DNA of 64,000 bases from Arenibacter catalasegens. GTDB lineage: Bacteria; Bacteroidota; Bacteroidia; Flavobacteriales; Flavobacteriaceae. The stretch covers positions 1 through 64,000 of the forward strand of contig NZ_PHQQ01000017.1 of NCBI RefSeq assembly GCF_002909235.1. Direction: 5' to 3'. Shown here in pieces: positions 10,062 to 57,807 of this stretch. The position numbers and the translations under genes were made by a program. Within the stretch, counting starts at the first letter, position 1. Each line of letters begins with the position of its first letter. The notes beneath the pieces were generated by a model. That model had not been told where the DNA came from. It was given only the letters and a program-made list of their open reading frames with translations, and did not search any database.

Positions 10062-10250
10062 TAAAGAAAAGTGTATTTCATCGAAAAATATACTTTCTAA
10101 AGTCCAAACTACTCGAACCCAACGTAAAACCACCAATGCAACCAAAGTGTGTAGTTCATCGAAAATAGCAGGTATTTTGCCGATGATGTTGTAAAAATAA
10201 ATAATATTGTAGAACCCAAATGTATATCCGTTAAATTAATGTCTTTACTT
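10062..10250 (+). promoter_or_regulatory. Upstream block conserved between the two lyase genes (copy A)
   Basis: This block aligns to 13018-13206 ahead of the second lyase gene. Shared elements are TCATCGA (10078-10084), a second TCATCGA (10156-10162), the inverted form CCGATGA (10180-10186) and the run AAATTAA-TGTCTT close to the start. TCATCGAAAATA at 10156-10167 with TATTTTGCCGATGA at 10173-10186 makes an imperfect palindrome that could be an operator. The function is inferred only from conservation. Confidence 0.5.
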
Positions 10251-11909
10251 ATGAAATTTCACCCCTCGAATCTCTTTCAAGTGACCCTAGTTTGTTTTGT
10301 CCTTTTTTTAAGTTTTTCCTGCAACAAGGATTCTGATCTTTTAGCGGAATATGTAGTGGAAAAACCGCAATCCTTTTTGGTTAATGACGTGGTAGTCACT
10401 TTGGCAAACAATCCAATTGTAATAGCCCCGTTAAGCAACGATACTTTTAAAGAACCGGATAAGGTAGCTATCACAGAAGTAACACCACCTAAAATGGGTA
10501 CGGCTGTGGTAAATGAAGATAATACAATAACGTATACTCCAGATACTGACCAAACCGGAACCGATGAGTTCGACTATTCCACTGCGGTCACCAATCCAGA
10601 TAACAGTGTATCAGAAGAAACCGGATCGGTAACCGTGACCGTGACCAATAAGACACCTACAGAACCTACTTCACCTTCAGATATGGGGGCCTTAAAAGCG
10701 TTTCCGGGTGCTGAGGGATTTGGGAAAAATACCACCGGAGGTAGAGGCGGCATTGTAGTAGAGGTTACCAATTTAAATGATAGCGGTTCAGGTAGTTTAC
10801 GAAGCGCTTTGAGTTTGAAAGGCAAAAGAACTATAGTGTTTAAGGTTGCAGGAAATATTAATCTTAATTCATATTTATCTATTGGTCCCGACAATGGCGA
10901 TTTAACTATTGCTGGTCAAACTGCACCTGGAGGCGGAATAACAATAGCTAATCACGGGATTAGGATACAAGGATCTAATACTATTGTACGATATGTGCGA
11001 TTTAGACCGGGAAACTCTGCTGATACAGGAGAAGATGCGGTTACTATTGTAGCTTATAGCGGAAGAACTACAAAAAATGTTATTTTAGATCATTGCAGTA
11101 TATCTTGGGGAAAAGATGAAAATTTTAATATTGGAGCAATAGGCGGAGCCGGGGTTAACAATGTAACTCTACAAAATAGTATTGTAGCTGAGAATATAGA
11201 TACCGGCTATGGTGTTTTACTTTGGAGTAAGGCCACTAACATTAGTTTTCATCAAAACCTATTGGCCCACAACAAGGCAAGAAATATACGCTCCTCAACT
11301 TGTACTAGTGATTTCGAATTTATCAATAATGTAGTATATAGTTTCGGCTCAGGTATGCAGCCAACTTTTGAAAATAAATTTGATATTGTGGGGAATGTAT
11401 TTATTTCGAACCCCAATGTCTCTAAACCTTCAACACTTGTGAAAATTGAGGCTTCAACAAATAATTGCCCTGATGGAATACTTTCTAAAACACAAGCTTA
11501 TTTAAGTGACAATACCTATGACGGTAGTAATATCTCAGTTGAATCGGAGCTGAAATCCTATCTGGAAAATTCAAAGATTTTTAATTCCGGTATATCTGCG
11601 ATTCCGAATGCGCAAGTAAAATCCACCGTTTTATCAAAAGTCGGTACAAGCCTTTACAGAGATTCTTTAGATGAGAGGATCATAGACGATGTCAATAACA
11701 GAACCGGCAAGATCCCTGGTTCAGCCGGAGGTTACCCGGATCTACCGAAAGGCACAGCTTATTCAGATAGTGACAAAGATGGGATGAGCAATGAATGGGA
11801 AACTGTAAATGGCTTAAATCCAAATGATGCCGGTGACAGTAATAAGGACCGGGATAGTGATGGCTATACCAATTTGGAAGAATATCTACATTATTTGACC
11901 AAAAGTTAA
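10251..11909 (+). CDS. Pectate-lyase-like (PL1-type) surface lipoprotein, copy A
   Basis: 552 residues from the ATG at 10251, chosen because it matches the start of copy B; an in-frame ATG at 10239 would add four residues. The signal peptide ends in the lipobox FLSFSC, followed by NKDSD, consistent with a surface-exposed Bacteroidota lipoprotein. One cadherin/Big-like domain follows (about 40-130, ending EETGSVTVTV). A right-handed beta-helix lyase domain starts at LKAFPGAEGFGKNTTGG and includes TIAGQTAPGGGITIA and VRYVRFRPG. The C-terminus has acidic Ca-binding repeats (DSDKDGMSNEWE, DRDSDGYTNLEEYL). The likely substrate is a uronic-acid polysaccharide, exact identity unknown. It ends in a near-perfect palindromic terminator. 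Confidence 0.8.
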   Translation: MKFHPSNLFQVTLVCFVLFLSFSCNKDSDLLAEYVVEKPQSFLVNDVVVTLANNPIVIAPLSNDTFKEPDKVAITEVTPPKMGTAVVNEDNTITYTPDTDQTGTDEFDYSTAVTNPDNSVSEETGSVTVTVTNKTPTEPTSPSDMGALKAFPGAEGFGKNTTGGRGGIVVEVTNLNDSGSGSLRSALSLKGKRTIVFKVAGNINLNSYLSIGPDNGDLTIAGQTAPGGGITIANHGIRIQGSNTIVRYVRFRPGNSADTGEDAVTIVAYSGRTTKNVILDHCSISWGKDENFNIGAIGGAGVNNVTLQNSIVAENIDTGYGVLLWSKATNISFHQNLLAHNKARNIRSSTCTSDFEFINNVVYSFGSGMQPTFENKFDIVGNVFISNPNVSKPSTLVKIEASTNNCPDGILSKTQAYLSDNTYDGSNISVESELKSYLENSKIFNSGISAIPNAQVKSTVLSKVGTSLYRDSLDERIIDDVNNRTGKIPGSAGGYPDLPKGTAYSDSDKDGMSNEWETVNGLNPNDAGDSNKDRDSDGYTNLEEYLHYLTKS

Positions 11910-13206: not shown

Positions 13207-15252
13207 ATGAAAATCACCCCCCCGAATCTATTACAAGTGACCCTGTCATGCCTTGTCCTTTTTTTAAATTTCTCCTGCAACAAGGATTCCGACCTATTGG
13301 CGGAATATGTTGTGGAAGATAATCCAATTGGCACTGAACCTAAAGAAGTAATTATTGATTTAGCAAATGCAGTATTTACTACCGACGAAGATCAACCTGT
13401 TTCCTTTAACATGCTTTATAACACAACTAGCAAGAGAAAAGGACGTAGAAGATATAAAGGTAGTTCAAAACCAAAATATGGTAATATTACCATTGAAAAA
13501 GACAGTATAGCTGTTTACACTCCTTCTAGCGATTATAATGGCAAGGATAATATTGAAATTACCTTGGAAGAGACAAATGAGGATGAAACAACATCGGAAG
13601 TAGTGGTAACAGTTGATGTTACCGTGGAGCCCGTAACAGATGTTGTGGAGGATATAATAGAAGTTCCTACAGAGGCCGAGCCGGAAGCACCTATAGTAAT
13701 TGAACCCCTTAAAAACGATACTTTTAATAAGGAAAGTGAGGTAATAATAACCGAGGTCAGTGAGCCATCCAATGGTACCGCAGTTATCAATGAGGATAAT
13801 ACTATTACCTATACCCCAAATACAAATAATCCTGAAGAGGTTATCACAGAAGAAGTTACTTCTGAAACCGAAGAGGTGGTTACTGAAGAAATTCCTGCGG
13901 AAAAGGATACCTTTACCTATACTACTTCTGTCACCAATCCGGACGATACGGTGACCGAAGAAACTGGATCGGTAACCGTGACGGTAGCCGATAAGACACC
14001 TACAGAACCTACTTCACCTACAGACATGGGAGCCTTAAAAGCTTTTCCGGGTGCCGAGGGATTTGGAAAAAATACCACCGGAGGTAGAGGCGGCATTGTG
14101 GTAGAGGTTACCAATTTAAACGATAGCGGTTCAGGTAGTTTACGAAGCGCTTTGAGTTTGAAGGGAAAAAGAACTATAGTGTTCAAGGTTGCAGGAAATA
14201 TTAATCTTAATTCATATTTATCTATTGGTCCCGACAATGGCGATTTAACTATTGCTGGTCAAACTGCACCTGGAGGCGGAATAACAATAGCTAATCACGG
14301 GATTAGGATACAAGGATCTAATACTATTGTACGATATGTGCGATTTAGACCGGGAAACTCTGCTGATACAGGAGAAGATGCGGTTACTATTGTAGCTTAT
14401 AGCGGAAGAACTACAAAAAATGTTATTTTAGATCATTGCAGTATATCTTGGGGAAAAGATGAAAATTTTAATATTGGAGCAATAGGCGGAGCCGGGGTTA
14501 ACAATGTAACTCTACAAAATAGTATTGTAGCTGAGAATATAGATACCGGCTATGGTGTTTTACTTTGGAGTAAGGCCACTAACATTAGTTTTCATCAAAA
14601 CCTATTGGCCCACAACAAGGCAAGAAATATACGCTCCTCAACTTGTACTAGTGATTTCGAATTTATCAATAATGTAGTATATAGTTTCGGCTCAGGTATG
14701 CAGCCAACTTTTGAAAATAAATTTGATATTGTGGGGAATGTATTTATTTCGAACCCCAATGTCTCTAAACCTTCAACACTTGTGAAAATTGAGGCTTCAA
14801 CAAATAATTGCCCTGATGGAATACTTTCTAAAACACAAGCTTATTTAAGTGACAATACCTATGACGGTAGTAATATCTCAGTTGAATCGGAGCTGAAATC
14901 CTATCTGGAAAATTCAAAGATTTTTAATTCCGGTATATCTGCGATTCCGAATGCGCAAGTAAAATCCACCGTTTTATCAAAAGTCGGTACAAGCCTTTAC
15001 AGAGATTCTTTAGATGAGAGGATCATAGACGATGTCAATAACAGAACCGGCAAGATCCCTGGTTCAGCCGGAGGTTACCCGGATCTACCGAAAGGCACAG
15101 CTTATTCAGATAGTGACAAAGATGGGATGAGCAATGAATGGGAAACTGTAAATGCCTTAAATCCAAATGATGCCGGTGACAGTAATAAGGACCGGGATAG
15201 TGATGGCTATACCAATTTGGAAGAATATCTACATTATTTGACCAAAAGTTAA
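13207..15252 (+). CDS. Pectate-lyase-like (PL1-type) surface lipoprotein, copy B
   Basis: 681 residues. Signal peptide and lipobox (FLNFSC, then NKDSDLLAEYVVE) match copy A. Unlike copy A it has two Ig/cadherin-like domains before the lyase: one at about 45-145 containing a basic patch (TSKRKGRRRYKGSSKPKYG) and one at about 155-270 with acidic EVTSETEEVVTEEIPAE insertions. The lyase and Ca-binding tail are the same as in copy A except for one substitution (Gly to Ala in VNALNPND). From 14185 to 15154 the DNA is identical to 10842-11811. It may bind a different ligand or sit further from the membrane while keeping the same catalytic domain. Confidence 0.8.
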   Translation: MKITPPNLLQVTLSCLVLFLNFSCNKDSDLLAEYVVEDNPIGTEPKEVIIDLANAVFTTDEDQPVSFNMLYNTTSKRKGRRRYKGSSKPKYGNITIEKDSIAVYTPSSDYNGKDNIEITLEETNEDETTSEVVVTVDVTVEPVTDVVEDIIEVPTEAEPEAPIVIEPLKNDTFNKESEVIITEVSEPSNGTAVINEDNTITYTPNTNNPEEVITEEVTSETEEVVTEEIPAEKDTFTYTTSVTNPDDTVTEETGSVTVTVADKTPTEPTSPTDMGALKAFPGAEGFGKNTTGGRGGIVVEVTNLNDSGSGSLRSALSLKGKRTIVFKVAGNINLNSYLSIGPDNGDLTIAGQTAPGGGITIANHGIRIQGSNTIVRYVRFRPGNSADTGEDAVTIVAYSGRTTKNVILDHCSISWGKDENFNIGAIGGAGVNNVTLQNSIVAENIDTGYGVLLWSKATNISFHQNLLAHNKARNIRSSTCTSDFEFINNVVYSFGSGMQPTFENKFDIVGNVFISNPNVSKPSTLVKIEASTNNCPDGILSKTQAYLSDNTYDGSNISVESELKSYLENSKIFNSGISAIPNAQVKSTVLSKVGTSLYRDSLDERIIDDVNNRTGKIPGSAGGYPDLPKGTAYSDSDKDGMSNEWETVNALNPNDAGDSNKDRDSDGYTNLEEYLHYLTKS

Positions 15253-15303: not shown

Positions 15304-15333
15304 ATGGTCGGAAGAAATTCCGACCATTTTTTT
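15304..15333 (+). terminator. IS-borne inward-blocking terminator, left end
   Basis: ATGGTCGGAA, loop GAAA, TTCCGACCAT, then seven T. Read rightward it would stop transcripts coming from the lyase gene before they enter the transposase region. Confidence 0.7.
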
Positions 15334-16549
15334 ATGTTTCAAAATGATCTAATTTCCCTTCACATTTTACCACAATCATAGCAATGGCCAAATTTCTGAG
15401 TTCCATTTTAAATCTTCTCTTGGCTGTTTTGTATCCTATCCTATTGGCCTTTTTGTATATTAGGACCAACATGGCCACAATCAAGGTCATATATAACATC
15501 ACTTCTATTCCGTTTTTGTTCAACGACACAAGGTGGCTCACATTAAGTTCTTGTTTGATAAAACGAAAGAATACCTCAATATCCCATCTTCTTCTATAGG
15601 CCTGGGCAACTTCTTTGGCGGATAGATCAAAATCATTGGTAATAAACCAAAAATCCTTAGAACCTTCTGCCTTGGTTTTTGCGACAATCAGACGAAAAGG
15701 AGTCTCCACCAATTCTTCTCGATGGTGGATATTGCCTTTTTTGTTATCAATAGCTCTTCCTGTGTAAAGATGGACTTTACTGTCCTTAACAAGAATCAAC
15801 TCTCCCAAATCCAAGTCTTGATCTTGATCAAGCAATGATTGTAGTTCTATATGTTTTCGATTTTCTTTTGCTCTAACAATAAAAGTGACAGAATCATTAG
15901 TGAATGATTTCATTGTTTTTGTAGATTGGAGACCTCTATCAATAACGTAAATGTTTTGATGGTGCGTTTCTTGCTTTACATGGTTTAGTATAGCCTGCGG
16001 CAAGGCTATATCTTCACTAGAATACTTTGCTTTATTGAACACATTGGAGTGGCAGGGCAATAAGCCGTCAAAAGCAATACTATTCTTGACCGACTTTTTT
16101 CCACTTTTATTGTCAAGTCCTTCCAACAGTTTACCCGATGCCTCACTGACCATAGAACTATCAACATGGATCAAGTGATATTTTTCGCCATCCTTGTTGG
16201 AATAGGCATCGTAAAACTGATGGTAGACACATTGATAGATCTGACGGAAGTAATCCGAGTCAATTTTAGATAATCTTTCTGAAATGGAGCTTCGTCTTAT
16301 ACTTTCTGATTTATCCAGATCAAAAAGAGTTTTGAAGATCACATCATTAAATGTATCCTCTAGGGTACGCTGGCTAAGTTTTTCATTTTCTAAAATACCA
16401 TATAGCAAAAGATAGAACATCTTTTTTCCATGAAGGACCTTGGCATAATAATCTATTTTAGTGGTTACCGAAAGTTTGGATAAAAGAGCTTCTGGAATTA
16501 CCCCCAACAATTGATTTACTGAAATCTTGTGACCTTTAAATACTGACAT
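15332..16549 (-). CDS. IS4-family DDE transposase
   Basis: 405 residues, intact. The DDE catalytic elements are visible: first Asp in LIHVDSSMVSEASGK, second Asp in IYVIDRGLQSTK, and the Glu within YRRRWDIEVFFRFIKQEL, which is the Y-(2)R-(3)E-(6)K signature of the IS4 family. The N-terminal 100 residues form the usual DNA-binding/DUF4372-like part (SVNQLLGVIPEALLSKLS). It moves the element by cut-and-paste. The reading frame fills nearly all of the element. Confidence 0.93.
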   Translation of the reverse strand: MSVFKGHKISVNQLLGVIPEALLSKLSVTTKIDYYAKVLHGKKMFYLLLYGILENEKLSQRTLEDTFNDVIFKTLFDLDKSESIRRSSISERLSKIDSDYFRQIYQCVYHQFYDAYSNKDGEKYHLIHVDSSMVSEASGKLLEGLDNKSGKKSVKNSIAFDGLLPCHSNVFNKAKYSSEDIALPQAILNHVKQETHHQNIYVIDRGLQSTKTMKSFTNDSVTFIVRAKENRKHIELQSLLDQDQDLDLGELILVKDSKVHLYTGRAIDNKKGNIHHREELVETPFRLIVAKTKAEGSKDFWFITNDFDLSAKEVAQAYRRRWDIEVFFRFIKQELNVSHLVSLNKNGIEVMLYMTLIVAMLVLIYKKANRIGYKTAKRRFKMELRNLAIAMIVVKCEGKLDHFET

Positions 16550-17559: not shown

Positions 17560-18381
17560 ATGCCTGATGAAAATAGTGCTTTGAAAAATTATTTAGAGCT
17601 CGCCATTGAGGCTGCCATAACGGCAGGAATAGCTATCATGAAGGTTTACAATAAACCAAGCTATAATCAGAAATTAAAAGATGATAATTCCCCTTTAACT
17701 GAGGCAGATACAGCTGCCAATATAATCATAAATAAAATTTTAAATACTTCCAATATTCCAATAATTAGTGAAGAAAATAAGAATGCGGACTATGACGTAA
17801 GAAAGAATTGGAAAAAATGTTGGATAGTGGACCCGTTGGATGGAACAAAAGAATTTGTCAATAAAAATGGCGAATTCACCGTTAATATAGCGATGTGTGA
17901 AATGGGAAGACCAATACTCGGAGTAATTTATGCCCCTAATAGCAAAGAACTATTTTATGCCGATGTAAAAAGTAGAAATGCTTATAAAATACTGTTAAAG
18001 GAAGAACAGATGTTAAAGGGTGAACTTTATGATGTTCAATATAAAATTTCACCTAATCCTACTCCAACAAGTACCATTAGGGTAGTAGGAAGCCGATCAC
18101 ACATGAATTCGGAAACTTTGGATTTTATAAATGGTTTAAAGAAAAAGTTTGATCAAGTAGAAATTGTTTCCATGGGGAGTTCCCTTAAACTATGTATAGT
18201 AGCAGAAGGCAAAGCAGATATTTACCCTCGTTTTGCCCCTACTATGGAATGGGACACGGCTGCAGGTCATGCGATTTGCAATGCGGTAGGATTAAAAGTA
18301 TTATCAAAAAACTCCCAATATGAATTAATGTATAACAAGGAAAATTTATTGAACAATCATTTTATACTTCAAAGTTCATAA
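17560..18381 (+). CDS. cysQ: 3'(2'),5'-bisphosphate nucleotidase CysQ
   Basis: 273 residues, inositol-monophosphatase fold. The metal-binding motifs are present: SPLTEADTAANIII (about 44-57), EEN at about 71, the core WIVDPLDGTKEFVNKNGEF (about 88-106), and the C-terminal EWDTAAGHAIC. The enzyme hydrolyses 3'-phosphoadenosine 5'-phosphate (PAP), the by-product that inhibits sulfotransferases after PAPS has donated sulfate. It heads an operon for PAPS synthesis and use, and its stop overlaps the next ATG by one base. In this setting its likely job is to clear PAP made by the sulfotransferase downstream. Confidence 0.92.
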   Translation: MPDENSALKNYLELAIEAAITAGIAIMKVYNKPSYNQKLKDDNSPLTEADTAANIIINKILNTSNIPIISEENKNADYDVRKNWKKCWIVDPLDGTKEFVNKNGEFTVNIAMCEMGRPILGVIYAPNSKELFYADVKSRNAYKILLKEEQMLKGELYDVQYKISPNPTPTSTIRVVGSRSHMNSETLDFINGLKKKFDQVEIVSMGSSLKLCIVAEGKADIYPRFAPTMEWDTAAGHAICNAVGLKVLSKNSQYELMYNKENLLNNHFILQSS

Positions 18382-18806
18382 TGGATAGCTCTCATAAAAG
18401 GCATATTGCCAAAACCATCACCTGGCGACTAGTGGGTACCGTGGACACCATTGTACTTTCATGGGCAATCACAGGTAACCCATTTACAGGGCTAAAAATT
18501 GGGATGCTAGAAATGTTCACGAAATTAATACTTTACTATCTCCATGAGAGGTTCTGGTTTAAATTTTATGTTGAAGAAAGCAAAACACGACACTTAATAA
18601 AAACTATTTCTTGGCGAATAATTGGTACTTTAGATACAATTACACTTTCATGGATAATTACAGGAAATGCACTCACAGGATTAAAGATTGGAGCAGCCGA
18701 AATAATTACAAAAATGATTTTATATTATTTACATGAACGTACATGGTATAAGATTAATTTTGGTTTGGATAAAACGAGAAGAGCTAAAAAATGGAAAAAA
18801 ACATAG
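18381..18806 (+). CDS. Tandem DUF2061 membrane protein
   Basis: 141 residues made of two DUF2061 units: residues about 4-57 (RHIAKTITWRLVGTVDTIVL ... LYYLHERFWFK) and about 66-122 (RHLIKTISWRIIGTLDTITL ... LYYLHERTWYK). Each has two short hydrophobic segments and a conserved W-R and Y-L-H-E-R. Bacterial DUF2061 proteins are usually single-unit and often sit beside sulfate-activation genes; function is not known. The gene overlaps cysQ by 1 bp and cysC by 16 bp, so translation is probably coupled. A role in sulfate supply or in anchoring the enzymes is a guess. Confidence 0.8.
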   Translation: MDSSHKRHIAKTITWRLVGTVDTIVLSWAITGNPFTGLKIGMLEMFTKLILYYLHERFWFKFYVEESKTRHLIKTISWRIIGTLDTITLSWIITGNALTGLKIGAAEIITKMILYYLHERTWYKINFGLDKTRRAKKWKKT

Positions 18807-19381
18807 TACAACAAGAGTATAAAATAAGCCGTACTCTCAGAAGAAAAGCAAACGGACATAATTCCTTCTTGATATTTTTTACAGGGTTTTCTGGATCTGG
18901 AAAATCTACCATTGCTAATGCATTGGAACAAAAATTGCATCAGCTCAAAATAAAAACCTATGTTCTGGATGGAGATAATGTACGCAGCGGGATTAATCAG
19001 AATCTTACTTTTAGTAAAAAGGACCGATCAGAAAATATTAGACGGATAGGGGAAATCTCCAAATTGTTTGTGGACGCTGGGGTGGTAGTACTCGCTGCTT
19101 TTATTGCTCCTTATAAAGAAGATCGGGAGTTTATAAAGGCAATTATAGAAAAAGAAAATTATGTGGAGGTATTTGTGAATACGTCTTTGGAAGAATGTGA
19201 ATTACGTGATGTAAAAGGATTATATAAAAAGGCCAGAAAAGGGGAAATAAAAAATATGACAGGTATTTCCGCACCCTACGAAGCACCTCAAAACCCTGAT
19301 GTGGAAGTTTCAGAGCTGCACTCTGTTGAAGAATCCGTAGAGATTATATATGACAAAATTAAAAACAAATTAATACTCTGA
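18791..19381 (+). CDS. cysC: Adenylylsulfate kinase CysC
   Basis: 196 residues, the normal length. The P-loop is FTGFSGSGKSTIANAL (about 31-46), followed by DGDNVRSGINQNLTFSKKDR, the APS-kinase signature with its PAPS/APS contacts, and the lid region FVNTSLEECELRDVKGLYKKA. It phosphorylates adenylylsulfate to PAPS, the universal sulfate donor for sulfotransferases. It is stand-alone, not fused to CysN. The gene is tightly packed, overlapping the DUF2061 gene and ending just before cysD. Confidence 0.94.
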   Translation: MEKNIVQQEYKISRTLRRKANGHNSFLIFFTGFSGSGKSTIANALEQKLHQLKIKTYVLDGDNVRSGINQNLTFSKKDRSENIRRIGEISKLFVDAGVVVLAAFIAPYKEDREFIKAIIEKENYVEVFVNTSLEECELRDVKGLYKKARKGEIKNMTGISAPYEAPQNPDVEVSELHSVEESVEIIYDKIKNKLIL

Positions 19382-19382
19382 A

Positions 19383-20291
19383 ATGATGAATAAATACTTT
19401 TTAAACTATTTGGATGAATTGGAATCAGAGTCTATTTATGTACTGAGAGAGGTATGGGCCCAATTTCAAAATCCTGTAATCCTTTTCTCTGGCGGTAAAG
19501 ATTCCATTGTCTTAACACATTTAGCTAAAAAAGCTTTTTTTCCAAGTAAAATTCCATTTGCCTTAATGCATGTGGATACAGGTCATAATTTTCCTGAAAC
19601 CATTTCTTTTAGAGATGAGTTAGTTAAGGTTATGGGAGTAAGACTTATCGTTGGTTATGTGCAGGATTCCATTGACAAAGGTAGAATAGCAGAGGAAAAA
19701 GGTAAAAACGCCACAAGAAATGCCTTACAGATTACTACCCTATTGGATGCTATAGAAACAAATAAAATAGATTGTGCCATAGGTGGAGGCAGAAGAGATG
19801 AGGAAAAATCCAGGGCCAAGGAACGTTTCTTCTCACATCGGGATGAATTTGGGCAATGGGATCCAAAAAATCAACGTCCAGAACTTTGGAATTTATTCAA
19901 TGGAAAGCAATTCCAAGGTGAGCATTTCAGGGTCTTTCCTATAAGCAATTGGACAGAAATGGATATATGGAACTACATTAAGAGGGAAAGCATACAAATT
20001 CCATCTTTGTATTTTGCTCATGAAAGAGAAGTAGTTTGGCGTAATGATTCTTGGATACCGAATTCAGAATTTTTAATTCTTGACTCCAAGGAAGAAACTC
20101 ATGTAAAAAAGATTCGCTTTAGAACACTGGGAGACATAACTATAACTGGGGGGATAGAATCAGATGCTGATACCCTCGAAAAAATAGTTCAGGAAGTAGC
20201 GGCGATGAGAAATACGGAACGTGGCAATAGAAGTGATGACAAAAGGTCGGATACTGCCATGGAAGACCGAAAAAGACAAGGGTACTTTTAA
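19383..20291 (+). CDS. cysD: Sulfate adenylyltransferase subunit 2 CysD
   Basis: 302 residues, matching the family. The PP-loop ATP pyrophosphatase motif is visible as ILFSGGKDSIVLTHLAKKAF (about 32-51), with AIGGGRRDEEKSRAKERFFS and the C-terminal RSDDKRSDTAMEDRKRQGYF typical of CysD. With CysN it adenylates sulfate to APS. It starts one base after the cysC stop and is followed 20 bp later by cysN, so the three are co-transcribed. Confidence 0.95.
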   Translation: MMNKYFLNYLDELESESIYVLREVWAQFQNPVILFSGGKDSIVLTHLAKKAFFPSKIPFALMHVDTGHNFPETISFRDELVKVMGVRLIVGYVQDSIDKGRIAEEKGKNATRNALQITTLLDAIETNKIDCAIGGGRRDEEKSRAKERFFSHRDEFGQWDPKNQRPELWNLFNGKQFQGEHFRVFPISNWTEMDIWNYIKRESIQIPSLYFAHEREVVWRNDSWIPNSEFLILDSKEETHVKKIRFRTLGDITITGGIESDADTLEKIVQEVAAMRNTERGNRSDDKRSDTAMEDRKRQGYF

Positions 20292-20311
20292 CAAAATTTA
20301 ATTACTAAATA

Positions 20312-21568
20312 ATGAATATTAATAATAGTCAATTATTGCGATTCACTACTGCCGGTAGTGTCGATGACGGTAAAAGTACTCTGATTGGTAGGCTACTATA
20401 CGATTCCAAATCTATATTCGAGGATCAACTTGAAGCCATTACAACAACCAGTATTAATAAAGGTCATAATGGGGTTGATCTTGCTTTGTTTACAGATGGA
20501 TTAAAAGATGAAAGGGAACAAGGTATTACCATTGATGTTGCCTATAGGTACTTTACCACTCCTAAACGTAAGTTTATTATTGCGGATACTCCTGGGCATA
20601 TACAATACACGAGAAATATGGTTACCGGGGCCTCAACAGCCAACGTCGCAATTATTTTAATAGATGCTCGCCATGGTGTAATTGAACAGACTAAGAGGCA
20701 TGCATTTATTGCGTCCTTACTCCAGATTCCACATATTATAGTTTGTATAAATAAAATGGATCTAGTAGATTTTAAGGAAGAAGCATATGATGGCGTTGTA
20801 GCTCAATTTGAAGAGTTTTCATCGAAGCTGTTGGTCAAGGACATCAGATTTATCCCCATAAGTGCTCTATTGGGTGATAACGTAGTACATAGATCTGAAA
20901 ATATGCCATGGTACCAAGGTGGTCTACTTTTACACACTTTAGAAACAATTCATATAAGTAGTGATATTAATAAGGTAGATGCCAGATTCCCAGTGCAGAC
21001 AGTTCTACGTCCCCAAAGTGGTGAATATCTTGATTATAGAGGCTATGCTGGTCGAGTAGCTAGTGGGGTTTTTAGAATTGGAGATGAGATTACGGTAATG
21101 CCTTCCGGCTTTACTTCGAAAATAAAGACTATAGATACTATTGAAGGAGAATTAAAAAGGGCATTTGCACCCATGTCGGTCTCGATAACCCTTGAAGACG
21201 ATATCGATGTTAGTAGAGGAGATATGATCGTTAGATCCAATAACAAATCGGGGGCTTCCCAAGATATTGAAGTAATGTTATGTTGGCTAACCCATTTACC
21301 TGCGAAACCCACTTCAAAATATACAATAAGACATACTTCCAATGAGCAAAAAGCAATTATAAAGGAAATTATTTATAAAATTGATATAAACTCCCTTTCT
21401 CGTTTACCAAACGAAAAAGAATTAAAAATGAATGACATTTGTAAGGTCAAAATACGTACTACAAAACCACTATTGATTGATTCTTACCGTGAAAACCGGG
21501 TTACAGGTAGTATTATTTTAATAGATGATAATACTAACGAAACAGTAGCGGCAGGAATGATAGTGTAA
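20312..21568 (+). CDS. cysN: Sulfate adenylyltransferase subunit 1 (GTPase) CysN
   Basis: 418 residues. EF-Tu-like GTPase motifs: G1 GSVDDGKSTLIGRLLYDSK (about 16-34), the switch segment DEREQGITIDVAYRYF, G3 DTPGH and G4 NKMD. Beta-barrel domains follow. GTP hydrolysis drives APS formation by CysD. The protein stops after the barrel domains and has no fused APS kinase, consistent with the separate cysC. No CysH, CysI or CysJ gene is seen nearby, so APS/PAPS from this operon is not obviously meant for reduction. Confidence 0.94.
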   Translation: MNINNSQLLRFTTAGSVDDGKSTLIGRLLYDSKSIFEDQLEAITTTSINKGHNGVDLALFTDGLKDEREQGITIDVAYRYFTTPKRKFIIADTPGHIQYTRNMVTGASTANVAIILIDARHGVIEQTKRHAFIASLLQIPHIIVCINKMDLVDFKEEAYDGVVAQFEEFSSKLLVKDIRFIPISALLGDNVVHRSENMPWYQGGLLLHTLETIHISSDINKVDARFPVQTVLRPQSGEYLDYRGYAGRVASGVFRIGDEITVMPSGFTSKIKTIDTIEGELKRAFAPMSVSITLEDDIDVSRGDMIVRSNNKSGASQDIEVMLCWLTHLPAKPTSKYTIRHTSNEQKAIIKEIIYKIDINSLSRLPNEKELKMNDICKVKIRTTKPLLIDSYRENRVTGSIILIDDNTNETVAAGMIV

Positions 21569-21694: not shown

Positions 21695-23026
21695 ATGAAA
21701 AAATTAAGGTTAATTTTTATTTCAATAGCTGGACTACTATTTTTCTCCATTTTCCTGTCTTCAACAGTCCGTAATATCTATTTATCAAAGGATGGGGGCG
21801 TTAATAAATTTGGAATGTTTGCAGAGCCTATTAAAGTATTAGCCGAATTACCATCAATGGTAAAACAAGTTTTGGATCTCCCTGAATTTTTAATCAAAAA
21901 TGTAGAGGCTAAAGATGGTTTTACATATTTTGGCAATCATAATTTTGATCAATATCCCAAAATATTGATTTCTTATAAAGAAAAAGAATTTGGTCAAAAA
22001 TTTGACCTTTATGAATTGAGTACAGGAAAACTATTAAAACGTTGGGAACCGGACAATAAAAGCCTGTATGATCAAGCTTACAATCAAATGTATCCACGGA
22101 GGCCAAATAAGGGAAGTGACTTGTATTTTATGCACCCTTTCTTTGCTCAGGATAGTTCATTGATACTGAATTCCCAACTTACCAGTTTATTGGTTAAAAT
22201 TGATAAAAACAGTAATACCGTTTGGTTAAAAAACGACAGGAATTACCATCATACAATAGAAGAAGACCACGAAGGGTATATTTTCACCTCTACACAACCT
22301 TTTCTATCAGGGAAATATGACATATTACCAGAAGATTACGATACCTACAAAACAATTCTCTTAGACGATGAAATCACAAAAATAAACCCGAAAAATGGTG
22401 ATATAATTTATAGTAAATCAGTAATTGCAATATTACTAGAAAATGGATTTGAGGATTTACTGTTATCGAAAGGTCAATTTATAAGTGACCCCATTCATTT
22501 AAATGACATACAACCAGCACTTACAGATTCGGATCATTGGAAAAAAGGAGACCTTTTAATATCCTGTAGAAATCTTAGTACAATATTTATATACAGGCCC
22601 AGTACCTCTAAAATAATTTGGATAAAACATGGCCCTTGGTATAATCAACATGACGTAGATTTTCTGGATAATAACAAGATAGTCGTCTATGGAAATGATG
22701 TTATTCGTGAAGAAAGTACGATTGACCCTAAATTAACCTCTCAAAATCTTTTCTTCAGTGCCAAAAGAAAAAACAATGAAATTTACATTTATGACTTTGA
22801 AAAAGACACTATATTTATTCCATATAGTAGATTATTAAAAAATGAAATGGTAAATACCATTACCTCTGGAAGATGTGATGTCCTATCAAATGGTGACTTA
22901 TTTATAGAAGAAACAAATGATGGGAAAATAATAATAGGTGATAGTATCCATAAAAAAATTGAATTTGTAAAAAGACTCGATGACAATCATATTTCAAGTC
23001 TATTTTGGAGCAGAATAATTAATTAA
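21695..23026 (+). CDS. Arylsulfotransferase (ASST)-like membrane-anchored protein
   Basis: 443 residues. One N-terminal membrane helix (LIFISIAGLLFFSIFLSS, about 5-22) would anchor the rest in the periplasm. Features of the ASST beta-propeller family follow: YHHTIEEDHEGYIF (about 183-196), DPIHLNDIQPAL, GDLLISCRNLSTIFIYRPS with conserved Arg, and YNQHDVDFLDNNKIVVYGND. Known ASSTs move sulfate from phenyl sulfate esters to acceptors by a transiently sulfated histidine and do not use PAPS. In this operon it could move sulfate onto a glycan outside the cytoplasm; that is inference. A 126-bp gap separates it from cysN. Confidence 0.7.
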   Translation: MKKLRLIFISIAGLLFFSIFLSSTVRNIYLSKDGGVNKFGMFAEPIKVLAELPSMVKQVLDLPEFLIKNVEAKDGFTYFGNHNFDQYPKILISYKEKEFGQKFDLYELSTGKLLKRWEPDNKSLYDQAYNQMYPRRPNKGSDLYFMHPFFAQDSSLILNSQLTSLLVKIDKNSNTVWLKNDRNYHHTIEEDHEGYIFTSTQPFLSGKYDILPEDYDTYKTILLDDEITKINPKNGDIIYSKSVIAILLENGFEDLLLSKGQFISDPIHLNDIQPALTDSDHWKKGDLLISCRNLSTIFIYRPSTSKIIWIKHGPWYNQHDVDFLDNNKIVVYGNDVIREESTIDPKLTSQNLFFSAKRKNNEIYIYDFEKDTIFIPYSRLLKNEMVNTITSGRCDVLSNGDLFIEETNDGKIIIGDSIHKKIEFVKRLDDNHISSLFWSRIIN

Positions 23027-23037
23027 ATTTTACAACT

Positions 23038-23190
23038 ATGTTTTTATATCTAGGACCTGGCCTTGGAGGCGGAATAATTGCTGTTATTTCAGGTATTTTT
23101 TTGACTTTTTTCGCTTTTTTGGTAGCCATTTTTTGGTTGCCTATCAAACGATTCATTAATTTCATTAAGACCAAACTAAATAAAGGCTAA
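23038..23190 (+). CDS. Small glycine-rich single-helix membrane protein (50 aa)
   Basis: Starts 11 bp after the ASST-like stop and encodes 50 residues: MFLYLGPGLGGGIIAVISG, then a hydrophobic helix (FLTFFAFLVAIFWL), then a basic tail PIKRFINFIKTKLNKG. The compact hydrophobic design and tight spacing argue for a real gene. The next gene starts (TTG) one base after its stop. I cannot name its function; small membrane proteins with a similar Y-x-GPG start occur in polysaccharide loci, so a role as an accessory to the ASST-like protein or sulfotransferase is a guess. Confidence 0.65.
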   Translation: MFLYLGPGLGGGIIAVISGIFLTFFAFLVAIFWLPIKRFINFIKTKLNKG

Positions 23191-23191
23191 T

Positions 23192-23587
23192 TTGATTTAT
23201 TTCCTTATTTTCATTATAACAATACTCTCTTGCGCCATCTTCGATAATCTTGGGATAATGACACTTGTGAAAAACTTGACCAACTCTTATAAATTCCAGT
23301 TAAAAGCTTTACAGGATAAAACCAAAACCGATGAAGAGAAACAAAAGGAATTATTACATCAGATTTCAAAACAAATCATTTATCTATTAAAGCTCATTGG
23401 AAGTATTATTTTATTTATCAGCCCATTTATTTCCATATTCGTTATAGATGAACTATTTAATTCTACACACTCAGAAACACTATATAGCCTGGGTGGAACT
23501 TTAGTTTCTTTGATTGCAGTAGTGCTCTATATCATTATAAAAAAACAATATGTCAAGTTACTCAAAAAGCGAAAAAATACTACATAA
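23192..23587 (+). CDS. Small integral membrane protein, unknown function
   Basis: 131 residues from a TTG start placed one base after the preceding stop; the next ATG (residue 23) would remove the first membrane helix. Three hydrophobic stretches: about 2-18 (IYFLIFIITILSC), 68-90 (KLIGSIILFISPFISIFVI) and 101-118 (GGTLVSLIAVVLYIIIKK), with a charged cytoplasmic loop (QDKTKTDEEKQKELLHQ) between the first two. No family recognised. Its 3' end overlaps the sulfotransferase gene by 38 bp, so it is part of the sulfation operon. Confidence 0.6.
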   Translation: MIYFLIFIITILSCAIFDNLGIMTLVKNLTNSYKFQLKALQDKTKTDEEKQKELLHQISKQIIYLLKLIGSIILFISPFISIFVIDELFNSTHSETLYSLGGTLVSLIAVVLYIIIKKQYVKLLKKRKNTT

Positions 23588-24566
23588 ACTATATTTATCA
23601 AATTATTTTTTAGCAAAGTCATCCTTGGAATTGGAAGAAATTATTTATGGGCCTAAGTCTAAAAATATCCAAATCCAGGAATACGTATTTATAACTGGTT
23701 TGGCAAGATCGGGAACAACGGCCCTAATGAATAAAATATTTGGTTCCGATGAATATGCTTCCCTGCAATATTCCAATATGCCGATTTTGCTTTCCCCAAA
23801 TTTTTGGAATAAAAAACTTAAGATTGAGGCTCATGAGAGAGCCCACAAAGATGGTATAATCATAGATGGCAATTCACCTGAAGAATTTGATGAATATTTT
23901 TGGAAGGTATTCATGAAGGATTCTTATATAAAGGATGGACTATTACCTCATACAGTTAATGAAGAAATTGTAAACAAATATTTGACTTACATATCCTTGA
24001 TTTGTTTGTCAAAGCAAAAACAAAAATATATCTCAAAAAACAATAACAACATTTTAAGGCTGGATACCTTAAAAAAAATAAACAATAGTAAAATATTTAT
24101 TTTATTTAGGGAGCCCATTTCACATGCTTCATCCTTAATGAAGTTGCACCGTAGTTTTTCCGACAGCCAACTTGATGATCCATTTGTTCTGGATTATTTC
24201 AACTATTTGGGGCATCACGAATTTGGTCTTAATCATAAACCTTTTCTATTGACCTCGGATTTTATAGAAACAAGAACACAATATGATCTTGAAGATATAA
24301 ATTATTGGATTATTCTATGGATTAATTATTATGAATATGTACTAGATACTTTCGACGATTCTTTTATGCTCATTTCTTTTGAAGATCTGGTTAATGAACC
24401 TGACGGTGTTTTTGAATATGTGGGCAAAAATCTCCAAGTCAAGCCCTTACCCAGTAGCATCAAAAAACATAAACCAATGGTCTATCAGTCCGTTGAATGT
24501 AATCCTGAAGTACAAAATCGAGCTAAACAGGTCTACAATAAACTAAACGCTTTAAAAAAGTATTAA
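23550..24566 (+). CDS. PAPS-dependent sulfotransferase family protein
   Basis: 338 residues. The PAPS 5'-phosphosulfate loop is YVFITGLARSGTTALMNKIF (about 47-66). The 3'-phosphate-binding region is recognisable as KIFILFREPISHASSLMKLH (about 189-208), with Arg and Ser in the expected places. Such enzymes move sulfate from PAPS to hydroxyl or amino groups of sugars. With PAPS synthesis (cysD, cysN, cysC) and PAP removal (cysQ) in the same operon, a polysaccharide or a lipid-linked repeat unit is the likely acceptor; this is inferred from context. Confidence 0.85.
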   Translation: MSSYSKSEKILHKLYLSNYFLAKSSLELEEIIYGPKSKNIQIQEYVFITGLARSGTTALMNKIFGSDEYASLQYSNMPILLSPNFWNKKLKIEAHERAHKDGIIIDGNSPEEFDEYFWKVFMKDSYIKDGLLPHTVNEEIVNKYLTYISLICLSKQKQKYISKNNNNILRLDTLKKINNSKIFILFREPISHASSLMKLHRSFSDSQLDDPFVLDYFNYLGHHEFGLNHKPFLLTSDFIETRTQYDLEDINYWIILWINYYEYVLDTFDDSFMLISFEDLVNEPDGVFEYVGKNLQVKPLPSSIKKHKPMVYQSVECNPEVQNRAKQVYNKLNALKKY

Positions 24567-34440: not shown

Positions 34441-35400
34441 ATGAAACAACCATTAAAATATATCTATCACAGAACCTTAGTTGGTAAAATAGTGATGAAT
34501 TTGTATCACTTTATTAATAAAGAAATAGTCCCGGAACGCATTTACCTGAAATACAGATATAAAAAGCACTTTGGAGAGTTTCCCGACTTAAGAAGTCCCA
34601 AAACTCTAAATGAAAAAATCATCTGGCTAAAATTACATGATAGAACACCGCTACATACACGATGCGCGGATAAATACGAAGTTCGGGGGTTTATAAAAGA
34701 TAATATTGGAGAAGAATATTTGGTCCCGTTATATTTTCATACGCAAAATGTTAATGAGATCATTGCTGATAATTTACCTGATACCCACTGTATAATAAAA
34801 ACCAATCACGACAGTGGTGGCGGAATTTTTGTTTTGGACAAAACTAAAATGAATTGGGAAGACATTCAACAGAAATTAAAAAAAAGAATGGAAAAAAATT
34901 ACTATCCGAAATCCAAAGAATGGCAATACAAGAACATAACTCCAAGAGTTATTGTAGAAAAATTATTACAAAACAGTAAAGGAGAAATTCCAGAGGATTA
35001 TAAACTTCATTGTTTTAATGGAAGTGTTAGAATGATTCAAGTAGATATGGGTAGAGGGACAACAAATCATTATAGAAACTGGTACAATACTCATTGGCAA
35101 CGTGAGCCCTATAAATGGTCTTCCCCAAAAGGTCCTGGAAAATATACAGACCCCAGTCCAGATGATGTGCCAAGGCCTAAAACCCTTGAGAAAATGATAT
35201 CGCTATCCGAAATTATATCTACTCATTTTGATTATGTCCGAGTAGATTGGTATGATGTAGATAGTAAGTTATATTTTGGTGAAGTTACCTTTCATCATGA
35301 CGGGGGCAACAAACCAATATTACCTGAAAAATGGGATTTAATACTTGGAAGCGAACTTATCCTTACAAAACTAAAATTACAAGATGTCCCAAAAGATTAA
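34441..35400 (+). CDS. TupA-like ATP-grasp amidoligase-family protein (copy 1)
   Basis: 319 residues. Family marks: LRSPKTLNEKIIWLKLHDRT (about 57-76), CADKYEVRGFIKDNIGEEYL, CIIKTNHDSGGGIFVLDK, RVIVEKLLQNSKGEIPEDYK, and the late VRVDWYDVDSKLYFGEVTFH carrying acidic metal ligands. The TupA family is named after teichuronopeptide synthesis in Bacillus, where an amino acid is joined to uronic-acid polymer; activity here is not established. A second copy lies at 37623. It is followed by a GT4 gene with a 17-bp overlap. Confidence 0.82.
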   Translation: MKQPLKYIYHRTLVGKIVMNLYHFINKEIVPERIYLKYRYKKHFGEFPDLRSPKTLNEKIIWLKLHDRTPLHTRCADKYEVRGFIKDNIGEEYLVPLYFHTQNVNEIIADNLPDTHCIIKTNHDSGGGIFVLDKTKMNWEDIQQKLKKRMEKNYYPKSKEWQYKNITPRVIVEKLLQNSKGEIPEDYKLHCFNGSVRMIQVDMGRGTTNHYRNWYNTHWQREPYKWSSPKGPGKYTDPSPDDVPRPKTLEKMISLSEIISTHFDYVRVDWYDVDSKLYFGEVTFHHDGGNKPILPEKWDLILGSELILTKLKLQDVPKD

Positions 35401-37622: not shown

Positions 37623-38567
37623 ATGTCGAGTTTTAGAAACACCATGAAGAATTTTTACTACTATAATCCAATAGGTAAATTTCTGCTATCTCCCTTTATC
37701 TTTTATAGAAATTATATAATGTCCGATAAAACTTATATTTTAAAAAGATTTAAACGGGTAATGGGATATAATCTGGATTTAAATAATCCGAGAACATTAA
37801 ACGAAAAGATTCAATGGCTCAAATTATATCACAATACTCCACTACACACTCAATGCGCAGATAAATATGCGGTAAGGGAATATGTAAAGAACAAAATTGG
37901 TGAAAATTATTTAGTACCTCTTTATTTCACCACAGATAATCCAAAGGAAATCAGACCAGAAAAACTTCCGGAAACACCGTTCATTATAAAGACCAATCAC
38001 GATAGCTCCGGTGGTGTAATTGTAAAGGACAAAACCAAAATTAATTGGGAAGAAATTCAAAAATCTTTAGAACAAAGATTAAAAAACAACTACTATCATC
38101 ATGCAAAAGAAAAACAATATAAGGATATTAGGCCTAGAATAATTGTTGAAAAATTGTTAATCGATAATTCCGGTAACATCCCTAATGATTTTAAAATTCA
38201 CTGCTTTAATGGTGACCCCCAAATTATTCAAGTTGATAGTGACCGATTTTCCAATCATAAGAGAAATTTATACAATGCAAATTGGGAATTGCTTCCATTT
38301 ACCTGGAGTATTTGGGTAGACAACAAGCCGGTATGGGACAATGGCCCAACCATGCAGAAACCTGAATCATTAAATACTCTAGTGGATTTAGCCAAATCTT
38401 TGTCCAAAGATTTTTACTATTCCCGAATCGACTTTTATGTAGTTGATGAAGAAATATATTTTGGAGAAATAACTTTCCACCATGGGGGTGGAACAGAAAT
38501 TATTTTTCCGAAAAAATGGGACTCCCATTATGGTGATAATCTTCGAATTCCTATTAATAAGGAGTAA
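37623..38567 (+). CDS. TupA-like ATP-grasp amidoligase-family protein (copy 2)
   Basis: 314 residues, clearly paralogous to the gene at 34441 along its whole length: LNNPRTLNEKIQWLKLYHNT, CADKYAVREYVKNKIGENYL, FIIKTNHDSSGGVIVKDKTK, RIIVEKLLIDNSGNIPNDFK and SRIDFYVVDEEIYFGEITFH. The two copies share the lysine, glutamate and late acidic ligands of ATP-grasp enzymes. Having two suggests two acceptor sites or two donor amino acids. It lies 65 bp after the preceding GT gene; a 261-bp gap follows. Confidence 0.82.
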   Translation: MSSFRNTMKNFYYYNPIGKFLLSPFIFYRNYIMSDKTYILKRFKRVMGYNLDLNNPRTLNEKIQWLKLYHNTPLHTQCADKYAVREYVKNKIGENYLVPLYFTTDNPKEIRPEKLPETPFIIKTNHDSSGGVIVKDKTKINWEEIQKSLEQRLKNNYYHHAKEKQYKDIRPRIIVEKLLIDNSGNIPNDFKIHCFNGDPQIIQVDSDRFSNHKRNLYNANWELLPFTWSIWVDNKPVWDNGPTMQKPESLNTLVDLAKSLSKDFYYSRIDFYVVDEEIYFGEITFHHGGGTEIIFPKKWDSHYGDNLRIPINKE

Positions 38568-43813: not shown

Positions 43814-44821
43814 ATGAAAGATATTACTACTAATTCCAAAATATACTCCTCTACTTGGCTGAAACATTTTGGTAATGGATATTTAGAAAACAAATTTAAT
43901 TTTATCGATAATATTTCCTTTATCAAGGACAAAGTTCTTCCAATATATATCAATATCGGGAAAAATTTATCGCTAGGAATATCCTATTCCAAACCGGAAA
44001 ATGGACCAATTGAATCTGCTAAAAAATTAAAAAATGGTGTAATTCTAATTTATCATGTGCCTACTTATTACAAGCCTGATTTTTTAGATTACAACAATTC
44101 GATCGGGTTGCACAAAATATACGATTCCACTGGGTATTTAATCGATTTTAAATCCTTTGACGACCTTGACAGCTATTTTACAGCCACATTAAGCCCCAGC
44201 CGTATAAAGAAAATCCAGAGAAATAAGAGACAGTTGGAATCTAGGCACGATATATCTTACAAATGGTATTATGGGGAAATCTCGGAATCGGAGTATGAAA
44301 AAGTATTTGAGTCGTTTCGCAAGTTATTGGAAAAAAGATATGATGATAAACAACAATACAATCGTCATTTAAACGATGCTATTTGGAATTTTTACCATGA
44401 GATTTTTTACCCTCTAATAAATACCAAAAATGCTTCATTCTACATTATCTATAATGGCTCTGAACCTATTTCCATTTGTCTAAACTACAACACCCCTGAT
44501 AGTATTAAGGGAGCTATCTCCGTATTCGATATCGACTTTGCCAAGTATGAAATTGGCAATATGTATTTAACCAATCAATTCGAAATCTGTTTTGAAAACA
44601 ACATAAGAATTTTTGATTTAGGTCTTGGCAATTATGGCTATAAAAATCGATGGAGCACTGATACTTACACTCTGGACCATCACGTATTCTACAATAGAAA
44701 ATCTATTATTTCCAGAACGTTAGCAAAAGTTATGCAAAAGTACTTTCAAACAAAACTAAAACTCAAAAAGAAGGGAGTTAAGAATATCTTTGTAAAAAAT
44801 CAAAATGTTCAAATAGAATAA
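43814..44821 (+). CDS. GNAT-like transferase (FemAB-related), capsule-locus member
   Basis: 335 residues. The C-terminal half carries the Acetyltransf_6-like core: FRKLLEKRYDDKQQYNRHLN, ASFYIIYNGSEPISICLNYN, ISVFDIDFAKYEIGNMYLTN and IRIFDLGLGNYGYKNRWSTD. The same layout (a conserved D-I-D-[FY]-[AS]-K-[FY] segment followed by G-x-x-x-[YL]-K-x-x-W) is seen in three longer proteins at 55-59 kb, so this is the likely relative of that family. It is the last gene of the rightward capsule run and is probably co-transcribed from 40.1 kb onward. Confidence 0.72.
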   Translation: MKDITTNSKIYSSTWLKHFGNGYLENKFNFIDNISFIKDKVLPIYINIGKNLSLGISYSKPENGPIESAKKLKNGVILIYHVPTYYKPDFLDYNNSIGLHKIYDSTGYLIDFKSFDDLDSYFTATLSPSRIKKIQRNKRQLESRHDISYKWYYGEISESEYEKVFESFRKLLEKRYDDKQQYNRHLNDAIWNFYHEIFYPLINTKNASFYIIYNGSEPISICLNYNTPDSIKGAISVFDIDFAKYEIGNMYLTNQFEICFENNIRIFDLGLGNYGYKNRWSTDTYTLDHHVFYNRKSIISRTLAKVMQKYFQTKLKLKKKGVKNIFVKNQNVQIE

Positions 44822-55036: not shown

Positions 55037-56212
55037 CTATTTAAAGATTATCTGCTGAGTTTTATTTTTTCCAGAAATTATATAAGTATTCTCCCGATCA
55101 CACATTTTGTAAATGGTCAGATTATCGGAATGTTCAGAATTAATATATTGGAAATCGTAAATGATTTTTCGCAAAAAAGAATAATCTTCGTTAATTATGT
55201 CAACTTCAATATGATCAGAAATGGATACGGTTTCGGTTAAATCGACCAATTCTACATCCGGAGCAGTACTATTAATTGGCAGTGACACCCTAGAGTTCCT
55301 TTTTAAAAAGGATCTAATTTTGGGTTTTATGGGTAAAATCCCTTTATTCCTTAAATACGTCTTAAACTTCATAATAAAAGCAACTAAATAGGCCCCTAAT
55401 TTTTTACCAATATTTCCCTTATTGTACACAATGTGACATTCGTATGGCTCAACGGAATTACACCACAAACTTTTGTAAGCCAATTCTCCCCATCGCATAT
55501 CATATCTACTAAAGCCATTTGCAAAACACCATTCTATTTTCTTCAATACCGCTATATTGCCAAGTCCGAATTTGGCATAATCAATATCATAGGAAGTTAT
55601 GGCACTATCAAAAATATTTTGATAGTGAAAGTTAAGACCGATTACAATAGGTTTTTCACCATCCGAAATGACAAAAACAGAAGCTCTTTTATCCAATATT
55701 AGCTGATAGGCAGCATCCTTATAAAAAGCCCATTTTTTCAGACCAGAATGTTCCTGATTTCTTTGAGAAAACCTCGTATTAATCATTGATTCCAAATAAT
55801 CCATCAAAAAAATATATTTTTTCTGGTTTATAGAACCATAAAACATCTCATAATTAATATCAAAGCATACCTCCAATCTTTTGTGGCGACTGTTTATAGT
55901 TTTTTTAACTCCTTTACTAAACTGAGCTTTCATGTACTCCTCCACATTATTAAAATTATCCAAAACTGCCTTATAACCCGTGTACGTATTGAATTTATAA
56001 AGACCGTATGAAGAGCTCTTCTTGTCAATTTTAAGTTCAAAGTATGGTGGGATATACTGAACAATGGAGATGTCACTTATATATATCTCACTATTTTCTT
56101 TATTATTATTAATGAATATATCACCATTGGTTTTATTATATAAACCCTTATAAAACGGAAAAATAGAATTTTTTTCAAAAAATTCGTGACTAAAATTTAA
56201 TCTTTTAAGCAT
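55037..56212 (-). CDS. GNAT-like (FemAB-related) paralogue 1 of 3
   Basis: 391 residues. Opens LKRLNFSHEFFEKNSIFPFY. Two core regions match the capsule-locus gene at 43814: RASVFVISDGEKPIVIGLNF and AITSYDIDYAKFGLGNIAVL, followed by GFSRYDMRWGELAYKSLWCN. The N-terminal part has KGVKKTINSRHKRLEVCFDI, a basic helix seen in all three paralogues. The C-terminal 70 residues form a shared short tail, here reaching FQYINSEHSDNLTIYKMCDR and TYIISGKNKTQQI. Likely an acyl or aminoacyl transferase; substrate unknown. Confidence 0.65.
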   Translation of the reverse strand: MLKRLNFSHEFFEKNSIFPFYKGLYNKTNGDIFINNNKENSEIYISDISIVQYIPPYFELKIDKKSSSYGLYKFNTYTGYKAVLDNFNNVEEYMKAQFSKGVKKTINSRHKRLEVCFDINYEMFYGSINQKKYIFLMDYLESMINTRFSQRNQEHSGLKKWAFYKDAAYQLILDKRASVFVISDGEKPIVIGLNFHYQNIFDSAITSYDIDYAKFGLGNIAVLKKIEWCFANGFSRYDMRWGELAYKSLWCNSVEPYECHIVYNKGNIGKKLGAYLVAFIMKFKTYLRNKGILPIKPKIRSFLKRNSRVSLPINSTAPDVELVDLTETVSISDHIEVDIINEDYSFLRKIIYDFQYINSEHSDNLTIYKMCDRENTYIISGKNKTQQIIFK

Positions 56213-56422
56213 GAGGGGTATTAAAATTTATTGGATTCTAACAAAAAACCCATAATAATAAAAAACCAAAATAGTAACAACTTTCCAGCGTTCAATTAAG
56301 GTTAAATTATTTATTAAAATTGGTATGGGCTTATCATGGTTTATTTTAGTAATCTTTTCTTTAATGTTAATCCAAATTTCGTGATATATCTAAAAATTTT
56401 GTTGAATAGGTAGACAAACAAT

Positions 56423-57595: not shown

Positions 57596-57807
57596 GGGGA
57601 ACACTCATTAAATGTTAGGTAATACGTAAGATATTCTATTTTTAAATAGCCAAAATTTAGCAAACAACACGGATTAAGTTAAAAGAATAGAAACTCTAAA
57701 CTTACTCGATACTTACAGCATAATCTGAACTTTAATCCTAAGCGATTCCTTTTAAAAGTCTACACATAATTCACGAAAATCCATATACAATGGCTAATTA
57801 TTCAAAG

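Follow-up and report, generated by a model that had tools for sequence, protein, structure and literature searches.

In the 64,000-nucleotide stretch of Arenibacter catalasegens DNA analyzed here (contig NZ_PHQQ01000017.1, positions 1 to 64,000; hereafter the window), four consecutive genes of the forward strand occupy positions 21695–24566 and constitute what is referred to below as the cassette: gene 1, for a membrane-anchored β-propeller protein resembling the arylsulfate sulfotransferases (ASSTs) of family PF14269, Arylsulfotran_2 (21695–23026, 443 aa); gene 2, for a single-helix mini-protein named after its Y-x-GPG motif (YxGPG; 23038–23190, 50 aa); gene 3, for a three-helix membrane protein (23192–23587, 131 aa); and gene 4, for a predicted sulfotransferase of family PF13469, Sulfotransfer_3, of the type that uses 3′-phosphoadenosine 5′-phosphosulfate (PAPS) (23550–24566, 338 aa). 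An earlier note on this DNA had recognized the first and the last as an ASST-like and a PAPS-type enzyme lying side by side, and both open reading frames (ORFs) are complete and matched by the respective Pfam families; the two-gene unit it described holds as a pair but not in its extent, since the 50-residue ORF had been missed and the 131-residue ORF left out, both being conserved members. The four genes form a unit larger than the named pair, which recurs across Bacteroidota and Alphaproteobacteria at identities as low as ~20% and is proposed to act as a sulfuryl relay.

The assignment of gene 1 rests on family membership, fold and an aligned active site. Its product matches Arylsulfotran_2 with E 3.4e-39 (135.5 bits, the Pfam cut-off being 27), shares 85% identity with its counterparts in two Arenibacter species, and has a single hydrophobic helix, at residues 4–22 after MKKLR, with none further along; the charges point to an N-in/propeller-out topology, in line with the membrane-anchored, periplasm-facing protein that the earlier note had assumed. 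The catalytic constellation for which the note had advised looking is also present: the predicted active site comprises H185/H186, H268, N270, R292, and H319, which map onto AssT His252, His356, Asn358, Arg374, and His436, respectively, in two comparisons, one bridged by a PF05935 protein alignable to 3ELQ and the other profile–profile (probability 97%, E 1.7e-11); as regards AssT Thr501, the last blade is weakly aligned. In E. coli AssT, His436 is the sulfated residue, surrounded by His252, His356, Asn358, Arg374, and Thr501 (PMC13426309). In gene 1, H268, N270, R292, and H319 align with residues of Cpz4 as well, and a profile search run directly against solved structures with the gene 1 protein hits Cpz4 (E 1e-14). 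The AlphaFold2 model (mean predicted local distance difference test, pLDDT, 61; predicted template modeling score 0.64) places two Cpz4 entries at the top in Foldseek, and with VIA-align these reach Z 16.8 and 16.3 over 290 residues (root-mean-square deviation 4.6), against 13.2 for the next unrelated propeller chain; the AssT entries reach Z 12.6–12.8 over 288–294 residues, values with which unrelated propellers tie. By sequence, the gene 1 product is predicted to be an ASST-type propeller with a catalytic constellation, homology alone not being taken as a claim of activity. β-Propellers often serve as scaffolds, and this habit, together with the low identity of gene 1 to the tested ASSTs, would favor a non-catalytic periplasmic scaffold or a sensor of the sulfated product; such a role is very improbable, given that 19 relatives, some as little as 14–20% identical, all retain H185/H186, H268, N270, R292, and H319, while most of the sequence varies freely.

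Stand-alone Arylsulfotran_2 proteins of Bacteroidota share the Pfam family of gene 1, but are mostly longer and occur in many cassette-free genomes; one of them is encoded by a second gene of the source genome (G000 C18:67726–68655; locus L025, 9619–10998), which begins like a lipoprotein gene and next to which no sulfotransferase was seen. In another genome (G388; L042, 6045–7470), the ASST gene is split across two overlapping frames, either by a frameshift or by a sequencing error.

The product of gene 4 matches Sulfotransfer_3 at E 2.1e-9 (38.4 bits; cut-off 27), as do 17/17 of its relatives at E 0.01 or better. Its P-loop RSGTT at positions 53–57 (R53-S/A-G55-T-T57), K163, and R187/S195 have aligned counterparts in tyrosylprotein sulfotransferase and are conserved across 17 relatives, and the fold of its model (pLDDT 67.5) is nearest to Mycobacterium STF1 and STF9, followed by heparan and tyrosylprotein sulfotransferases. 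The PAPS loop RxGTT, the Lys and Arg...Ser residues and the fold are thus held in common with tyrosylprotein sulfotransferase and STF1/STF9, whereas the ERAHxDGI and HHEFG motifs and the membrane partner set this type apart from other Sulfotransfer_3 enzymes. These likenesses suggest that the gene 4 product uses PAPS, a reading that the PAPS genes immediately upstream support as context; a cytoplasmic location is predicted for it, because the only hydrophobic helices of the type belong to the three-helix part with which it is fused in some genomes.

The two small members were found by reading every small ORF between the ASST and sulfotransferase genes in 17 loci. The YxGPG mini-protein, aligned in 16 loci and predicted to be N-out/C-in, has invariant Y4, G6, P7, G8, P35, and R38, and in most of its distant relatives a signal-like N-terminal segment ends just ahead of Y-x-GPG; in a sample of 199 genomes from the family of the source, strong matches to it were confined to the three cassette genomes, the three other, weak matches lacking the motif. 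The three-helix protein has a conserved basic segment, predicted to be cytoplasmic, that links its first helix to its second, and in the window its gene overlaps gene 4 by 38 bases. Weak Pfam matches of YxGPG proteins to undecaprenyl-phosphate translocase (E ~0.01) and to CysZ (E 7e-4 at best, in 3/16 members), and of the three-helix protein to DUF3169, were not used as evidence, and the window proteins fall below the cut-offs of those families. Outside the cassette, a YxGPG gene of plasmid pSC52_6 (L059, 4007–4240) lies ~20 kb from the ASST locus and adjoins another sulfotransferase gene, and a Sphingomonas daechungensis plasmid (L058, 6995–7204) carries a YxGPG-like gene by itself, no ASST or sulfotransferase being annotated in its vicinity.

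In genomes G038 (L020) and G559 (L021), in Paracoccus (L028) and in Tateyamaria (L030), a single polypeptide combines the three-helix protein with the sulfotransferase, and such fusions are found in at least three lineages. In the two genera named, the genes run YxGPG, fusion, ASST, the set thus having been kept through rearrangement. Genome G038 had looked like a case of a lone ASST, a candidate counter-example that was discarded, since the downstream 462-aa ORF is the fused three-helix protein and sulfotransferase (E 1e-96), with a YxGPG ORF in between.

The distribution of the pair was examined by searching for the ASST-like and sulfotransferase proteins separately in each sample. In the 199 genomes mentioned, a family-level sample, both searches flag the same three; among 395 Bacteroidota genomes each search flags seven, six of them in common, the unshared ones having, in one case, a fragment of the sulfotransferase and, in the other, a truncated ASST (in a genome 77% complete); in another family, represented by 27 genomes, nine have the ASST, and these include all eight in which the sulfotransferase occurs; and in 72,556 plasmids the ASST search and a search with one sulfotransferase return the identical seven, all alphaproteobacterial, in each of which (7/7) the sulfotransferase adjoins an ASST relative, usually with two tiny genes between them or fused. 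The hypergeometric probabilities are 8e-7, 1e-11, and 4e-6 for the samples of 199, 395, and 27 genomes, respectively, although the genomes are related and not independent, so that these values overstate the significance; the breadth of the association, spanning two phyla and identities down to 14–20%, does not rest on them, and the adjacency of the two genes is far beyond chance. A scan of the genome collection found the cassette in Arenibacter echinorum, Arenibacter palladensis, Eudoraea, Pricia, Robiginitalea, and a metagenome-assembled genome labeled Chryseobacterium, and many of the carriers are marine; a phage origin was rejected, there being no match in phages. The co-occurrence of both genes in other genomes, which the earlier note had put forward as a check, accordingly extends far outside the source genome. 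PF14269 as a whole is found in 81/395 Bacteroidota genomes, far more widely than the cassette, and the link to the sulfotransferase is therefore specific to the cassette subfamily of ASSTs; in the samples searched, the gene 4 type of sulfotransferase occurs only with a cassette-type ASST, except for one fragment (G390). The divergence of the four cassette proteins is correlated (Mantel r 0.85–0.93).

ASSTs do not use PAPS and require a sulfate ester as donor, and the simplest account of the pairing is therefore that the inner enzyme makes that donor. The reading preferred here, with a probability of about 0.6, is that the cassette is a four-gene, two-step membrane sulfuryl relay by which cytoplasmic PAPS chemistry sulfates periplasmic targets. 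CysC, CysD, and CysN would make PAPS, and CysQ would clear 3′-phosphoadenosine 5′-phosphate (PAP), in the cytoplasm; the PAPS sulfotransferase, tethered to the cytoplasmic side of the membrane by the three-helix protein, would sulfate a membrane-borne acceptor, probably a phenolic or otherwise activated hydroxyl; the sulfated carrier would reach the outer face; and the propeller anchored there would take the sulfuryl group onto His319 and hand it to the periplasmic target, with the YxGPG mini-protein, nearly always present, spanning the membrane. PAPS itself would never need to leave the cytoplasm. That the carrier is membrane-borne is suggested by the conserved membrane parts, and the relay is supported by the predicted topology, with the sulfotransferase on one face of the membrane and the propeller on the other. 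Co-occurrence, fusions, conserved catalytic and PAPS-site residues, topology, correlated divergence, and the precedent of Cpz8/Cpz4 all argue in its favor, and the coupling of the two sulfate-moving enzymes is well supported, whereas the chemistry of the carrier, the direction of sulfate flow, the acceptor and the roles of the two small proteins are inferred.

Several observations weigh against a relay. Co-occurrence would also fit two enzymes that serve one product without handing sulfate over; the Mantel correlation is also expected from shared vertical descent; the confidence of the gene 1 model is modest (mean pLDDT 61); the incomplete genome G592 shows an ASST, with no sulfotransferase found; and G337 carries the sulfotransferase and an intact ASST at separate loci, 1.3 Mb apart, with no YxGPG gene seen at either. 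The intact ASST of G337 being unlinked to the sulfotransferase, the pair is evidently kept at the genome level without linkage; at its sulfotransferase locus (L041, 8762–9439), the first part of an ASST gene is fused in frame with the three-helix gene, which is what a deletion has left of the ASST and the mini-gene there. Several genomes in the family of G337 have two to four ASST copies and one sulfotransferase, a ratio that would fit one loading enzyme serving several transferases.

In one alternative without a hand-over, both enzymes would serve one product: the PAPS enzyme would sulfate a lipid-linked intermediate in the cytoplasm, and the ASST-like protein would add further sulfates outside, taken from environmental aryl sulfates such as algal phenol sulfates. 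Small aryl sulfates are used by known ASSTs (PMC13426309), and the position of the window cassette within a glycan cluster and the many marine carriers would suit this explanation; nevertheless, the use of environmental aryl sulfates needs no PAPS partner, the genes are paired even outside glycan clusters and in G337, where the ASST has moved away, and the fusion and the two conserved membrane adaptors indicate coupled action, so that it appears unlikely, if worth keeping in mind.

The surroundings of the cassette bear on the acceptor. In the window, the PAPS genes flank it on one side, and on the other a gene resembling UDP-sugar epimerases is followed by a long glycan cluster; no second sulfotransferase P-loop of the gene 4 form was found within the window, and the acceptor there is for this reason probably the polysaccharide of that cluster. 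Other genomes may differ, several cassettes lying amid transporters or housekeeping genes, outside glycan clusters. The earlier note had proposed the relay through a sulfated carrier with the glycan as the recipient; the relay stands as a good hypothesis, the residues and the co-occurrence having both been found, and the glycan fits the window but not as a necessary acceptor. The non-glycan surroundings of some cassettes, the nearness of the gene 4 fold to Mycobacterium STF1/STF9 and the action of Cpz4 on a small molecule, its substrate (PMC6731281), would also agree with a cassette that makes and exports a sulfated small molecule or lipid, which the ASST-like protein matures or remodels, for example by shifting the position of the sulfate, the glycan cluster being incidental. 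This is rather improbable, as the window cassette lies between PAPS and UDP-sugar/glycan genes and the comparison of related loci revealed no small-molecule biosynthesis genes conserved alongside the cassette.

The closest known counterpart of the proposed relay is found in caprazamycin biosynthesis, where the PAPS enzyme Cpz8 sulfates a phenolic carrier, a triketide pyrone, and Cpz4 passes the sulfate on, the published logic being that sulfate moves from PAPS to a phenolic carrier and then to the hydroxyl of a sugar (PMC6731281, PMC4257720). The relay is thus not new in principle, contrary to the earlier note, which had regarded it as a new route if true: in the Streptomyces system (PDB 9KF4/9KF6), too, a PAPS sulfotransferase and an ASST-type propeller are encoded together, and Cpz4 is the closest match to the gene 1 protein by sequence profile as well as by fold. 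The cassette differs in that its enzymes are predicted to lie on opposite faces of the membrane, in its two extra conserved membrane proteins, and in lacking the type III polyketide synthase that makes the Cpz pyrone carrier. Such a synthase was rejected as the universal source of the carrier, being present in 5/7 cassette genomes, unlinked, although it may play this part in individual ones; in searches with PF02797, the sole match in the source genome is on another contig (G000 C17), unlinked to the cassette, and G038, a full-cassette genome, has no match. The principle is therefore known, while the membrane-built, pyrone-synthase-free and widespread version appears to be undescribed; a literature search, whose coverage left out most subscription journals, turned up no description of the cassette. 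E. coli AssT (PDB 3ELQ, 4P04; PF05935) shares the propeller fold over nearly the full length and the five active-site equivalents, but AssT forms a homodimer in the periplasm and carries a β-sandwich at its N-terminus (PMC13426309), whereas the gene 1 protein is membrane-anchored and accompanied by a conserved PAPS enzyme. The cassette may represent a more general device, in which activated sulfate crosses the cytoplasmic membrane on a sulfated lipid (e.g., a quinol, phenolic lipid, or polyprenol), with the two small membrane proteins of the cassette loading or flipping this carrier, a tentative extension to which somewhat less than even weight is given; by analogy with mycobacterial sulfomenaquinone, a sulfated quinol is one candidate only. 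For AssT, we know of no PAPS partner.

According to a 2026 review, most ASSTs lack identified natural acceptors and their roles in bacterial cells are poorly understood (PMC13426309). A cassette that joins an ASST, a PAPS enzyme and membrane adaptors offers a genetically tractable place to find both acceptor and role. If the relay exists, it would give bacteria a way of sulfating molecules in the periplasm or at the cell surface by way of the membrane, which is relevant to sulfated polysaccharides of marine origin and to tools for enzymatic sulfation, and would extend a two-step hand-over of sulfate so far known from one antibiotic pathway; a sulfated lipid, if that is the device, would be a natural in-cell donor for ASST-type enzymes.

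The genes preceding gene 1 (17560–21568), all on the forward strand, are, in order, cysQ (17560–18381; TIGR01331), for the 3′(2′),5′-bisphosphate nucleotidase that removes the PAP left by PAPS enzymes; a gene for a membrane protein with two tandem DUF2061 repeats (18381–18806; PF09834, E 1.6e-42, in two stretches); cysC (18791–19381; TIGR00455 and NF003013), for adenosine 5′-phosphosulfate kinase, which forms PAPS; and cysD (19383–20291; TIGR02039) and cysN (20312–21568; TIGR02034), for the small and large subunits of sulfate adenylyltransferase, the TIGR and NF matches all being above cut-off. By sequence, CysCDN and CysQ account for PAPS supply and PAP clearance. The DUF2061 gene overlaps both cysQ and cysC and is retained in related cys operons, and its product might be linked to sulfate uptake. 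Upstream, a transposase-like gene (15332–16549, reverse strand) separates this operon from the genes of two neighboring secreted lyase-like proteins (10239–11909 and 13207–15252), whose C-terminal parts are near-identical and whose repeat-rich N-terminal parts differ, as if a recent duplication had been followed by alteration. In the glycan cluster, 34441–35400 and 37623–38567 encode two related proteins of ~315 residues, possibly sugar-modifying enzymes. At 55037–58983 of the window, on the reverse strand, lie three tandem paralogues of ~390 residues, whose central part resembles the ORF at 43814–44821.

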